DNA of 53,128 nucleotides from the NCBI GenBank assembly GCA_963169325.1, contig CAUJEY010000342.1, positions 1 to 53,128 on the forward strand, in the 5' to 3' direction. The notes below the pieces were generated by a model, which was given only the letters and a program-made list of their open reading frames with translations, ran no database searches and was not told the DNA's origin. A program made the position numbers and the translations under genes. Within the stretch, counting starts at the first letter, position 1. Every line of letters starts with the position of its first letter. The stretch is from Bacteroidota bacterium (GTDB lineage Bacteria; Bacteroidota; Bacteroidia; Chitinophagales; Saprospiraceae). Positions 13,617-17,634 of the stretch are shown piece after piece.

Positions 13617-14399
13617 ATGGATTTTCAGAAAGAGGTGATCGAACGCAGCCATGAGTTACCGGTACTCGTTGATTTTTGGGCCGAATGGTGCGGCCCCTGC
13701 CGGATGCTGACGCCGGTACTGGAAGCGGTGGAACGCGAACAACAGGGGCGTTGGGCGCTGGTTAAGATCAACACAGAAGAACATCAGGACCTCGCGGCGC
13801 AATTCGGGATTCGCAGCATCCCCAATGTCAAAATGTTTTACCGGGGTAAGGTAGCCGATGAATTCACCGGGGCGCTGACCCGCCCAATGCTGGAGCGTTG
13901 GCTGGCAGAGCATTTACCCGATCCGGAAGCCGGAGCCCTGGAAGCCCTGCTGAGCCGGGCCGCCGGTTGGCCCGATGATACCATGATCGAACCTTTGGAA
14001 GCCTACGTTCTGGGGCATCCCGACCGCGTGGATGCCAAAATGGCCCTGGCCCGGTTTTCAATCCTGTCCAACCCGGCCGCGGCAAAAGCACTTGCTTCAG
14101 AGGTTCCGCCCGGGGGCAAATACGGAGAAACCGCGGCGGATATCCTGACACTGGTTGAATTGACCGGCTTTGCCGGCAATGGAGCGCCCACTGCACAAAC
14201 CCTGGCAAAAGCCCGCGAGGCCCTGCTGAACGCCTCCATCGAAACGGCGCTCCAACATCTGATCGACGCTGTGGCTACCGATAAAAATTATCAGGATGCC
14301 CTGCCGCGCCGCGCTACCGTGGCATTGCTCCGGCTGCTGGGCGAAGCAGATCCGCTTACACCGGTTTACCGGCGCAAATTTAGTATGGCGCTGTATTAA
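13617..14399 (+). CDS. Thioredoxin-fold protein with C-terminal TPR-like region (CnoX/YbbN-like)
   Basis: This 260-residue protein has an N-terminal thioredoxin domain (residues 1-105) with the redox motif WCGPC, the cis-Pro region IRSIPNVKMF and the usual DFWAEW strand. Residues 110-260 are helical and TPR-like, with small-residue repeats (AKMALARFSI, AREALLNASIETALQHLIDAV, DALPRRATVALLRLLGEADPLTPVYRRK). This is the architecture of CnoX/YbbN, a cytoplasmic holdase that hands clients to GroEL and DnaK and protects them from over-oxidation. There is no signal peptide, which fits. The CxxC is intact, so a true oxidoreductase role is possible, unlike E. coli CnoX, which lacks the second Cys. The gene is monocistronic and converges on the GH5 gene with a 4-bp overlap. 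Confidence 0.87.
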   Translation: MDFQKEVIERSHELPVLVDFWAEWCGPCRMLTPVLEAVEREQQGRWALVKINTEEHQDLAAQFGIRSIPNVKMFYRGKVADEFTGALTRPMLERWLAEHLPDPEAGALEALLSRAAGWPDDTMIEPLEAYVLGHPDRVDAKMALARFSILSNPAAAKALASEVPPGGKYGETAADILTLVELTGFAGNGAPTAQTLAKAREALLNASIETALQHLIDAVATDKNYQDALPRRATVALLRLLGEADPLTPVYRRKFSMALY

Positions 14400-15415
14400 T
14401 ACTTTTCTCCCTGCAACACCTTTTTAAAATACACCCCTTGTCGCGAAGGCGTAAACTTCCAGTCGGTAAACATATTCGGCGCCCACTGCGGATCAAACAC
14501 CCAGGCCACCCAGGAAATACCCTTTTCTGCGGTATAAGCCGTGATGGCGTCGCCGTAAGATTCGTCGCTGATGACGGGGATGTGCGCGCCCGGGTCTTCA
14601 GGGCCGCAAAAACCGATTTCCGTCAGGATCACCGGGTACTTTTCGGCCACGAAACCCCAATCGGCGGTCCAGGGCGCGGCCCAGGGCGCTTTCCGTTTTT
14701 GCGGATACGGGTGGCTGACGTAAGCAATACCTTCGGCGTCGATGGGTTCGGCTGCCACGGGGCTGAGGTCGTAGGCCCAATCGAAGCCGGCGACCAAGGG
14801 AATGGCCCGGCAATCGTGGGCCCGGATGATCGTAATGGTTTCCTCCATGATCGCCTTCCACTGCGCCCAGGTACAATTGCCCAACTGGCCGTTGTACACG
14901 GTCGGCTCGTTGAATAGTTCAAAAAAAGCCACGGCCGGCTCGTCTTTATAGTGTTTGGCCATAGTACGCCAAAACTCAAACGTTTCTTTTTGTGTGGTCT
15001 CGTACGTAGGCGCCTGGAACAATTCGGAACGCAGGTTGCCGATACTGTGCCAGTCGATAATGACGTACAAACCCAGTTCTTCGGCCCATTGTACACCCCG
15101 GTCGAGCAGTTGAATATAAGCGGTTTGTCCACGCCGGCGCCAGGCATCCGGGTGAACCGGAAACCGCACCATATTGGCGCCCCATTTTTTGATTTCTTCA
15201 AAATAGGCTTTATCCCAATGGCCCTCGCGTTCCAGTTTATCCGGATCGCTGCTGCTCACGCCGCGAAAAACCAGCGTATCGCCGTTTTCGGATACAAAAC
15301 TGTTGCCCTGTACGCTGATGCGCGGCATGGGGGCGGGGGATTGAGCGACGGCGTTGAGTGCCGTCAGCAAAGCCGGAAGGAGCAATACATAAAGAGGTAA
15401 ACGGTATTTTCTCAT
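14396..15415 (-). CDS. Secreted glycoside hydrolase family 5 endoglucanase-like enzyme
   Basis: This 339-residue protein has a signal peptide ending near NAVAQS. The GH5 (beta/alpha)8 barrel shows the clan GH-A landmarks: MVRFPVH (R84), IIDWHS (H123), the acid/base Glu in FELFNEP (E170), SHPYP (H235) and the nucleophile Glu in ILTEIGF (E266). The length matches a single catalytic domain with no carbohydrate-binding module and no obvious sorting tail, so it is probably periplasmic or released. It most likely cuts beta-1,4-glucan or a related beta-mannan; the substrate is not certain from sequence. It is a single gene, preceded by an intergenic region that contains a candidate noncoding RNA ending about 105 bp upstream of its start. 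Confidence 0.88.
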   Translation of the reverse strand: MRKYRLPLYVLLLPALLTALNAVAQSPAPMPRISVQGNSFVSENGDTLVFRGVSSSDPDKLEREGHWDKAYFEEIKKWGANMVRFPVHPDAWRRRGQTAYIQLLDRGVQWAEELGLYVIIDWHSIGNLRSELFQAPTYETTQKETFEFWRTMAKHYKDEPAVAFFELFNEPTVYNGQLGNCTWAQWKAIMEETITIIRAHDCRAIPLVAGFDWAYDLSPVAAEPIDAEGIAYVSHPYPQKRKAPWAAPWTADWGFVAEKYPVILTEIGFCGPEDPGAHIPVISDESYGDAITAYTAEKGISWVAWVFDPQWAPNMFTDWKFTPSRQGVYFKKVLQGEKY

Positions 15416-15482
15416 TGTATCAGGTTTAATTCATTGCAAAGGAAACACATTACAATGTAGTAAATGGCTCGGACAAGTGCCC

Positions 15483-15520
15483 CTTTTACATTTTGACTTT
15501 TACATTTTACATTTTGACTT
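15483..15520. repeat. TTTTACATTTTGACTT direct repeats
   Basis: Two copies of a TTTTACATTTTGACTT unit, with a partial TTTTACA copy between them, lie between the candidate RNA terminator and the GH5 gene. They are of the same general kind as the other locus-specific short repeats of the window. Confidence 0.6.
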
Positions 15521-15560
15521 AAAAAAAGAGCCCTCATCCAGCATTGCGCGGATAGAGGGC
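15521..15560 (-). terminator. Intrinsic terminator (minus strand)
   Basis: A 10-bp stem with one bulged A joins GCCCTC-ATCC (15530-15539) and GGAT-A-GAGGGC (15550-15560) around a 10-base loop. On the minus strand it is followed by CTC and seven T (15521-15527). It lies 350 bp behind the dynamin gene, too far to be a normal terminator of that gene, and fits the 3' end of the candidate RNA. Confidence 0.75.
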
Positions 15561-15777
15561 AATCCCAAAAACCGATTACATCTTTATGCGGACAGTTATT
15601 CCCATAAAGGAAATACCTGAGGCAACTCATTTAAAACCAGGGGAATACGCCTGGTCATATAGTGCTGGTTATGTTTTCAGAATACACGAACAGGTCAGGA
15701 ATGACCTGTTGACGCGGGAGAAAAGAAATCCGAAGTGTTCAGGGATTAAAAGTGTCGTTTAATACGACCAAATAATG
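15521..15777 (-). ncRNA. Candidate structured noncoding RNA of about 255 nt, family not recognised
   Basis: On the minus strand this interval has a full transcription-unit signature: a consensus promoter just upstream (15783-15812), a chain of hairpins and a terminal intrinsic terminator. In transcript order the stems are GTCGT/ACGAC (15754-15768), AATCC/GGATT (15727-15747), a perfect 9-bp stem AACAGGTCA/TGACCTGTT with a 4-base loop (15689-15710), ACCAGG/CCTGGT (15636-15655), CTTTATG/CATAAAG (15582-15609) and the terminator stem. No convincing reading frame occupies it. It has no CCA end or TpsiC-like arm, so it does not look like tmRNA or tRNA. A diverged 6S-like RNA is possible but not shown. 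It could also be a long regulatory leader of the GH5 gene, ended by attenuation. Confidence 0.6.
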
Positions 15778-15782
15778 TGCCA

Positions 15783-15812
15783 CAAAAGTAGTTCAATTAG
15801 CCGGGACACCAA
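15783..15812 (-). promoter_or_regulatory. Promoter of the candidate RNA
   Basis: Read on the minus strand, TTG (15812-15810) is followed by a 19-base spacer and TACTTTTG (15790-15783). This is a perfect TAnnTTTG with the expected -33/-7 spacing. Transcription should start near 15777. Confidence 0.65.
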
Positions 15813-15909
15813 TACCCATGCGGGGGTAAATGTTTAAATTATGACATGAAAATTACCCAAGTGCCGGCAAGTAGTACGCCCAATGGGGCATAGTGATTTT
15901 CAGGTTTAA

Positions 15910-17634
15910 TCAATTGATTTTCAATTGTTTTTCCAGTTCTTCAAAACGTTTTTCCAGCCCTGAAAACTGCTCTTCGAAGTGGGCAATTTGTTTTTCTTCG
16001 TTGGCTAAGAGCGCGTCTAAATCTGCGAAATTGTCGTTGATCCGGCTTTTTATTATGCGCACGTAAGTGATGAGTTTGTCGCGCAGGGTTTCTTCCATCA
16101 GGCCGCGGCCGCGGGCGATTTCTTCGAAATAGCCTTTGACGATTTTGCGGCGCTGAAGTCCGGCGGTGATGCCGGCGAACAGCAACCCGATGCTGGTGAG
16201 CACGCCGCCGGTGATATCGAACACCGCGGTCTTCGTGACGGCGGCGAGAATGAGGCCGACGACCGCCACGCCGCTGCCGGCGGCGATATTGGGCGAAATG
16301 GCGGCGTTTTCGGGGAAAAGCCGGGTGTCGGTAAAACTTTCGGAGCGCGAGATAAAACGGCCGAAGGCTTCCTGCAAATCTTTCAGTACTGTGGCCCGCT
16401 TGTCGGAGATGTCTTCAAAAATATAAGAATCGCTTTTAACGCCCGAGCCGGCGCTGTTGCGAATTTTCAGGTCGATCATTTTGGCCATCTGTTGCACGCT
16501 GTCGGCCAGGTCCACCACACCGTCGCTGAGTTTGGACCGGAGTTCGGCGTTCAGGTGGGTTTCCAGTTTTTTCGTCAGGTCGTTCAGCCAGTCTTTGATA
16601 GAGCCTTGTTTGCTGAAGATGCCCATGACCGAACGCCGCAGCATCGACGGGAAGGAGAGGCCGCCGTCTAATTCCCGGCCGATCTCTTTGGTGATGCGGT
16701 CGTAGCCGTTCAGCAGGTTTTCGATCAGGATACCGCTCTGGTGGTTCGTTTTGCCCTCCTGGTGGTCGAGCGTTTGGTGTACGTCGGCGCGGAAAGCCCG
16801 GTCGGCGCGAAATTGTTCCGTTCGGGCATCCAATCCCTCGCGGATGCGGGTTAAAATACCTTTAGAGGTGGTGAGGTTGTTTTGAAGTTTCATAGCCGCC
16901 CCGCGCCCGCCGGTGACGTGGGTACGCACGTAGTCGCGCACGGTGGAAAAACCGCTCTCGTCGAAGCGGCCCTCTTCTTCGGCTTTGGCGCTGGTGGCAA
17001 AAATAGCCGGTTCCTGCAGGCCTTTTTTATGGGCGTAATCGAACAACCCACGCTCGTTCACCGCTAAGTCTTCGGCGCTGAGCAGGTCTTTTTGTTGCAG
17101 GATAAAAATGATCTTCTTGTGCCAGTCGTGGTGGATAAAGTCGAAAAAATCCCAGGCCGACTGCCGGTAGGGGTTTTTGGCCTCAAACACGAAAATGACC
17201 AGGTCGCTGGCCGGGATAAATCCTTCGGTGATATCCTGGTGGCGTTCGACGATGGAGTTGGTGCCGGGCGTATCCACGATGGCGATGTCGCGCAGGATGT
17301 CGACCGGTAAAAATATTTTTTTCAAATAGGGGTTCACCACCACGGTTTCCGCCTGTTCGGCGTACAGAATTTGCTGGATGGTGTCGGTCATCGGTTGGGG
17401 AGCCACGGCGCAGACTTCGCGCCCGGCCTCCAGCAGGGCATTGACGAAGCTGCTTTTTCCGGCTTTTACCTCGCCGACGATGACGAACATGTAGGGTTCC
17501 GACATGCGGTTGCGCAGTTCGCCGACCGTGGCGGCGAGTTCTTTGTGGCCGATTTCCTGGGCCAGACGATGCAGGTCCTTGACGGCATCTTCCACCTGAA
17601 CGCGCAGGGCTTGGGTGTGTTGATTTATCATCAT
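15910..17634 (-). CDS. Bacterial dynamin-like GTPase
   Basis: This 574-residue protein has an N-terminal large-GTPase domain: P-loop GEVKAGKSS (54-62), a likely switch threonine in PMTDT, G3 DTPG (121-124) and a G4-like LQQKD (180-183) in place of the usual T/NKxD. Helical coiled-coil segments follow. Two hydrophobic segments near 455-490 (SGVAVVGLILAAV and GVLTSIGLLFAGITAGL) resemble a membrane paddle, and the C-terminus is a charged coiled coil (EEKQIAHFEEQFSGLEKRFEELEKQLK). Such proteins remodel or repair membranes; some act in stress or phage response. It is a single gene, and the predicted promoter leaves only a few bases of leader before the tandem ATG codons at 17634 and 17631. Candidate RNA sequence lies downstream on the same strand. 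Confidence 0.88.
   Translation of the reverse strand: MMINQHTQALRVQVEDAVKDLHRLAQEIGHKELAATVGELRNRMSEPYMFVIVGEVKAGKSSFVNALLEAGREVCAVAPQPMTDTIQQILYAEQAETVVVNPYLKKIFLPVDILRDIAIVDTPGTNSIVERHQDITEGFIPASDLVIFVFEAKNPYRQSAWDFFDFIHHDWHKKIIFILQQKDLLSAEDLAVNERGLFDYAHKKGLQEPAIFATSAKAEEEGRFDESGFSTVRDYVRTHVTGGRGAAMKLQNNLTTSKGILTRIREGLDARTEQFRADRAFRADVHQTLDHQEGKTNHQSGILIENLLNGYDRITKEIGRELDGGLSFPSMLRRSVMGIFSKQGSIKDWLNDLTKKLETHLNAELRSKLSDGVVDLADSVQQMAKMIDLKIRNSAGSGVKSDSYIFEDISDKRATVLKDLQEAFGRFISRSESFTDTRLFPENAAISPNIAAGSGVAVVGLILAAVTKTAVFDITGGVLTSIGLLFAGITAGLQRRKIVKGYFEEIARGRGLMEETLRDKLITYVRIIKSRINDNFADLDALLANEEKQIAHFEEQFSGLEKRFEELEKQLKIN

Follow-up and report, generated by a model that had tools for sequence, protein, structure and literature searches.

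Between the genes of a dynamin-like GTPase and a GH5 cellulase, a genome of the Saprospiraceae contains an unannotated interval, and the question that it raises is whether this interval is a gene in its own right and, if so, of which kind. The interval belongs to a stretch of 53,128 nucleotides that was analysed as a whole and is referred to as the window. It is very probably a real and hitherto undescribed small RNA gene. At the level of sequence comparison, it forms a conserved independent unit, its 3' end is a conserved module and this module is common to the ends of genes coding for type IX secretion cargo. How the RNA would act is less certain, and several readings are weighed below.

Organisation of the locus

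The predicted gene occupies the minus strand from a 5' end near 15777, placed there from the promoter, to position 15521. Its putative promoter (15783-15812) combines a TTG at 15812-15810, a 19-base spacer and TACTTTTG at 15790-15783, all of which were found on recheck as the initial annotation had described them. At the opposite end, the intrinsic terminator (15521-15560) consists of a 10-bp stem, GCCCTC-U-AUCC / GGAU-GAGGGC at 15560-15530, followed by TC and then by seven T at 15527-15521. The stem and the T run had also been pointed out earlier; the stem was seen to carry one bulged U. RNA polymerase would start at this Bacteroidota-type promoter near 15777 and stop at the terminator near 15521, as sequence and conservation suggest. 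Both neighbouring genes lie on the minus strand, the dynamin-like GTPase upstream (15910-17634; PF00350 and PF01926) and the GH5 cellulase downstream and outside the RNA unit (14396-15415; PF00150). With a predicted promoter and terminator of its own outside operons, the unit is built as a stand-alone small RNA gene.

The RNA measures about 255 bases between the promoter and the end of the terminator. From 5' to 3', always on the minus strand, it contains a short hairpin GTCGT/ACGAC (15754-15768), a 5' box TTTTAATCCC (15742-15751), the perfect 9-bp stem with a 4-base loop already noticed in the initial annotation (15689-15710), a hairpin CTTTATG/CATAAAG (15582-15609), a linker ATAAAGATGT (15578-15587) and a 3' box of 16 bases, AATCGGTTTTTGGGAT (15562-15577), that precedes the terminator. 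Short reading frames occur in the RNA, none of which was seen by eye to be kept between relatives.

The sequence between 15515 and 15782 (268 bases) folds at -77.5 kcal/mol against a mean of -60.5 for its shuffles (sd 4.64), which corresponds to a z of -3.66; 1 of 200 shuffles folded equally well. For the RNA body alone (15600-15776), z was -2.97 and was equalled by 0 of 200 shuffles. The assignment of the gene draws on this fold together with the related units of the genus. The five internal inverted repeats initially reported were only partly recovered. Between 15380 and 15900, a search for arms of at least 7 bases separated by at most 60 bases returned five pairs, of which only three are inside the RNA. 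The number depends on the threshold, because shorter repeats such as GTCGT/ACGAC at 15768-15754 exist.

No Rfam family reached its gathering score anywhere in the window. At a permissive threshold (E up to 10), the region 15400-15920 matched one microRNA model only, below its cut-off. Nineteen related loci (14 from the genera g83 and g51 and five from the window's genus) gave five Rfam matches, all of them below the cut-offs.

Immediately past the terminator, TTTTACATTTTGAC is present twice (window 15484-15518). Related stretches of 23-34 bases are scattered at many sites of the same genome, some of them as facing pairs about 100 bases apart, an arrangement that resembles a dispersed intergenic repeat.

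Recurring architecture within the genus

A BLAST search of the region against 60 genomes, the window's own included, returned matches in 27 of 36 genus mates and in 0 of 23 genomes of other families. In the genus mates the matches covered the 3' end only, about bases 236-312 of a query of 331, and included 3'-UTR copies. Allowing up to three mismatches, the 25-base 3' signature TAAAGANGTAATCGGTTTTTGGGAT was found in 27 of 42 genus genomes, among them the window's own, and the reversed control gave 0 matches. It was single-copy in 25 genomes, with two matches in G025 and three in G032, some at contig ends. A housekeeping RNA, offered as one option by the initial annotation, is unsupported because the signature was not found in the other 15 of the 42 genomes.

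Upstream of the signature, several further elements recur. The -7 box TAnnTTTG is present at 22 of 27 stand-alone genus loci when 270 bases are searched per locus (shuffle mean 4.06, maximum 9), while no enrichment was observed before the 3'-UTR copies (10 of 64, redundant copies included, vs a shuffle mean of 8.7). A TTG located 17-21 bases ahead of the -7 box was seen at only 5 of 27 loci (shuffle mean 0.58, maximum 4), and the upstream promoter element is therefore weakly conserved. The 5' box, written as [TA]TAATCC[CT], occurs near the start of the long genus RNAs: 14 of 18 have it within their first 90 bases (shuffle mean 0.17, maximum 2). This pattern was picked post hoc from the same sequences. 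The stretch from -66 to -6 before the 3' box folds as a hairpin with a mean z of -2.32, 15 of 18 genus RNAs being below -1, and windows further upstream gave means of -0.11, -0.04 and -1.01. The window's own hairpin at this place is weak (z -0.8).

The genus-wide architecture comprises the -7 box, the 5' box, the hairpin and a block made of linker, 3' box and terminator, the body in between being variable. The distance from promoter to box ranges from 43 to 366 bases in the 23 genus RNAs with a promoter. The stems fared unequally in alignments examined by eye: the terminator recurs, as does the hairpin ahead of the 3' box, and most of the middle diverges, including the strong 9-bp stem of the window, which recurs in no aligned relative. 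RNAalifold suggested a pairing between AAUCCC of the 5' box and GGGAU in a group of 8 RNAs and not in the joint alignment of 17; the pairing also appears in several single folds. It was rejected, as it involves only 5 pairs with duplex energies at chance.

The genomic surroundings vary. The dynamin protein was matched at 14 of 30 genus loci, the window's included. Among neighbouring frames of at least 100 codons, called mechanically, a downstream frame was seen at 27 of the 30 loci, on the opposite strand in 20 cases and on the same strand in seven, the window being one of the seven. At five loci with a downstream frame (L193, L194, L203, L205 and L207) the nearest upstream frame is divergent as well, so that neither neighbour's transcript would yield the RNA in sense. 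A sixth divergent call, at L210, was taken as an artefact because the dynamin protein matches there. The initial proposal of a stand-alone RNA of an unfamiliar family is thus backed by the promoter, the terminator, neighbours that are often on the opposite strand and the Rfam search, in which no match reached a gathering score.

The 3' module in the Saprospiraceae and behind cargo genes

The succession of hairpin, linker, AATCGGTTTTTGGGAT and terminator constitutes a 3' module that recurs across the family, a feature beyond the reach of the initial annotation. The 3' box, with at most one mismatch, was found in 159 of the 199 genomes compared from the family, spread over 95 of 112 genera. These matches were called from the box sequence alone and may include chance ones; the reversed box mostly gave 0 matches and never more than 2 per strand. 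When named genomes were scanned for exact matches, at least 118 stretches were returned, many in Saprospiraceae records and others in unrelated coding sequence. The cultured relative Neolewinella agarilytica carries one copy (L112). Among the matches listed, a lenient criterion for a terminator was satisfied by 79 of 118, and at least three of these 79 (L092, L116 and L134) look like chance matches in coding sequence. A phage origin was also considered and rejected: the box plus NGCC had 0 exact matches among viral contigs.

For a covariance model of box and terminator, 39 modules of equal length were considered; 35 were used, and the four that formed fewer than 9 of 11 pairs were set aside. 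An earlier alignment of 26 modules had been discarded, its gaps blurring the right arm of the stem. In a sample of 296 genomes of the phylum, searched with stricter filters, five of the six family genomes listed had a score above 40 bits and none of the remaining 290 did. The best score among the latter was 37.8 bits, and most outside matches, at 25-31 bits, resemble ordinary terminators. Contig C200 of the window's genome holds a match of 40.1 bits without the box, and 40 bits is therefore not a clean border.

In these 35 modules, pre-selected for good pairing, 99.7% of the cells of the terminator stem are paired and 7 of 11 pairs have changed on both sides, a number reached by 5 of 500 shuffles. 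Cells changed on both sides amount to 64 against 14.3 in shuffles (0 of 500). One U-G wobble pair is invariant in 35 of 35 aligned modules, the window's own stem having U-A at this position. In 145 of 154 distinct modules, 1-3 bases separate the box from a CCTC downstream. Since the wobble is fixed and CCTC conserved, the terminator stem is held in sequence besides shape.

Many copies are found at the 3' ends of genes. Among 146 distinct modules, 96 fall outside the stand-alone class. An upstream reading frame lies within reach of 61 of them, and for 19 of the 96 fewer than 250 bases are available upstream within the locus. Por_Secre_tail was identified in 45 of the 61 frames, FlgD_ig in 7, CHU_C in 1 and PorP/SprF in 1. 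Some families may overlap in these tallies, and three or more of the frames are the wrong ones. The box is identical, not complementary, between the small RNA and the message 3' ends. The genome of the window itself has four module copies behind type IX cargo tails, with a coding end visible for three and the fourth (L028) seen in an alternate frame only. These four are near-identical, follow repeated cargo-gene tails and in three cases lie close to contig ends. One more copy follows the end of a gene read by eye as PorP/SprF-like. As judged from sequence, the RNA is part of a multicopy Saprospiraceae family that comprises stand-alone genes and 3' ends of type IX cargo genes; having both intergenic and 3'-UTR members, this family is reminiscent of FopS/GibS.

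Some copies (L038, L070, L104 and others) show a second conserved block, GGCGATTGGATTGTATGTGATTCAC, shortly upstream of the box. Read by eye, it often stands right behind a TAA, some hundred bases past the ends of PorP/SprF-looking genes. At L047/L265 (G707:C360) and L057, three box-terminator copies are arranged head to tail about 89-98 bases apart and look like a tandem duplication of a small RNA. Similar triplets of one-mismatch boxes occur in G136:C46 and G225:C65.

Units with plausible promoters of their own were seen in the genera g83, g49 and g51. A looser form of the signature (up to two mismatches) is present in 73 of 398 family genomes, which does not prove stand-alone units because many two-mismatch matches are of the 3'-UTR type; some closer matches lie directly behind cargo genes, e.g. 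L245 and L250. In g83 (L252-L262 and L265), the promoter was found 352-416 bases ahead of the box in the 12 RNAs taken. By eye, the g83 RNA lies between a relative of cysteine synthase and a TerC-like gene at L042, L054 and L141, upstream of the TerC-like gene at all three loci viewed. Within this long RNA, AACCAATT/AACCGATT segments are repeated; a frame of about 10 codons, seen by eye, also recurs and overlaps a possible hairpin.

Mode of action and rival readings

The mechanism favoured here places the working part of the RNA in its 3' module, where the hairpin and linker lead to the box AAUCGGUUUUUGGGAU set against the terminator hairpin; the conservation of these parts is described above. 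The box would act in trans, most likely by serving as a seed that pairs with mRNAs. That the RNA is a stand-alone member of a multicopy Saprospiraceae family whose box works in this FopS-like manner is a proposition for which the chances seem evenly balanced. A protein site is its main rival. Base pairing is ranked first for two reasons, one being that sequence complementary to the box tends to occur nearby. In g83, almost the entire box has its complement within the RNA itself in 12 of 12 cases (mean z -2.73, range -1.19 to -4.19), the 12 being close relatives and non-independent. ACCG is enriched upstream of 3'-UTR copies (22 of 62; shuffle mean 7.1, maximum 12), 11 patterns having been tried for each of two classes. 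In g83, folding back onto the upstream complementary segment might switch the seed off. As a general rule, fold-back of the 3' box was rejected: it is supported in g83 and not in the window's genus, where complementarity to the box inside the RNA was no better than chance (mean z +0.49, 23 RNAs).

A second reason for this ranking is that FopS, the nearest described system of the phylum, has a conserved stretch before its terminator and represses SusC-type mRNAs. The FopS/GibS small RNAs of Bacteroides are described as multicopy, with intergenic and 3'-UTR members, and as conserved within one bacterial family; the conserved stretch of FopS precedes an intrinsic terminator (PMC11697453). The likeness extends to the phylum, the multicopy state, both types of members, the position of the conserved stretch and conservation within a family. 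The differences are that the window's RNA and the 19 related loci had no Rfam match at gathering score, that the Saprospiraceae box abuts the terminator and is preceded by a body of some 45 to 400 bases and that the 3' ends of secretion-cargo genes form the larger class in Saprospiraceae. An RRM protein is moreover not always found alongside the Saprospiraceae RNA. A chaperone protein may assist the box in the manner of the FopS small RNAs of Bacteroides. An RRM protein of the RbpB kind (RRM_1) was identified in three of six genomes and not found in G007, G029 and G011, which carry the RNA; its co-occurrence with the RNA is thus not consistent.

The Hfq-type 3' modules of enteric small RNAs also have their working part at the 3' end by the terminator and are common to small RNAs and mRNA 3' ends. 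The Saprospiraceae module differs from them by a specific 16-base box present in few copies per genome.

When long exact or near-exact complements of the box were sought as targets, none conserved near a gene start was seen among the matches listed. Nine distinct exact 13-base matches outside the modules were viewed, again among the matches listed and in a set leaving out G000 and part of G035, and all lie in long open frames. One of them is common to G007, G009 and G022 and another apparently to G009 and G011.

A protein site is possible, if rather unlikely. A sequence-specific protein would then recognise the box and terminator stem at the 3' ends of type IX cargo messages and would be titrated by the stand-alone RNA as a decoy. 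A decoy would account for a box that is the same on the small RNA and on the message ends instead of complementary, and for a lower stem kept in sequence, with its CCTC and its U-G wobble. It is weakened by the window's stem, which has U-A instead of the U-G of the 35 aligned modules, and by the three RNA-carrying genomes in which the candidate RRM protein was not found.

The module could also be a mere efficient terminator, spread by recombination with cargo-gene ends, and the 200 bases upstream of it functionless. The divergent middle of the RNA is in keeping with this idea, as are the near-identical copies behind the repeated cargo tails of the window's genome, three of them close to contig ends. 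It is nevertheless improbable, given that termination needs no 16-base box ahead of the stem and that 95 of 112 genera have this box. Nor does a terminator alone agree with the recurring hairpin in front of the box, or with a -7 box whose enrichment is seen at stand-alone loci and is missing ahead of the 3'-UTR copies.

A divergent 6S RNA is highly improbable. The models of 6S RNA (RF00013) and 6S-Flavo (RF01685) had no match in eight genus genomes (G000, G007, G009, G011, G019, G022, G029 and G034), a weak negative because the models also miss most control genomes, RF00013 being detected in only five of 14 and RF01685 above its cut-off in 0 of 14. In these eight genomes 6S RNA is accordingly missing or unrecognised, subject to the same weak controls, which favours this reading only slightly. 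The RNA resembles 6S in being stand-alone and about 100-260 nt long and differs from it by the lack of a model match and of a rod-like fold: no rod with a central bubble was seen by eye in the predicted folds of the window's copy and of 22 genus RNAs. The same 3' module moreover terminates cargo genes, and the signature was not found in 15 of the 42 genus genomes, both of which speak against 6S RNA.

The alternative put forward initially, a GH5 leader that contains an attenuator, is hardly tenable. In the window, GH5 starts on the same strand 106 bases beyond the terminator, so that read-through there is compatible with the sequence. Among the loci compared, with flanks of about 1.5 kb, those that have GH5 beside the RNA all come from the window's genome; the next gene is mostly on the opposite strand, and the idea fails on the absence of conserved linkage to a same-strand downstream gene.

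The RNA appears to be new to the literature. In open-access publications, no paper pairing Saprospirales with noncoding RNA was found, and the one listed for Saprospiraceae and small RNAs is a lake community survey. Titles and opening lines of abstracts of the listed open-access papers on type IX secretion and small RNAs mention no such system, and the main text of two surveys of noncoding RNAs in bacterial genomes contains neither Saprospir- nor Bacteroidetes/Bacteroidota. The broader open-access literature, among the partial records listed, has nothing on the present RNA, the FopS paper aside. The family itself is abundant in wastewater plants, according to one article (PMC9304909).

Starting from the favoured stand-alone small RNA, a more speculative step, which we consider rather doubtful, is a Saprospiraceae RNA circuit in which the module of the small RNA competes with the identical 3' modules of cargo mRNAs for a shared partner. 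If this were true, one small RNA would tune the fate of the messages of type IX secreted proteins via their 3' ends. A model of box and terminator can be used to annotate the many unannotated copies. Overall, a box common to a stand-alone RNA and to cargo-gene ends provides a testable handle on post-transcriptional control of type IX secretion, and may offer another on what replaces Hfq-type systems in the Saprospiraceae.
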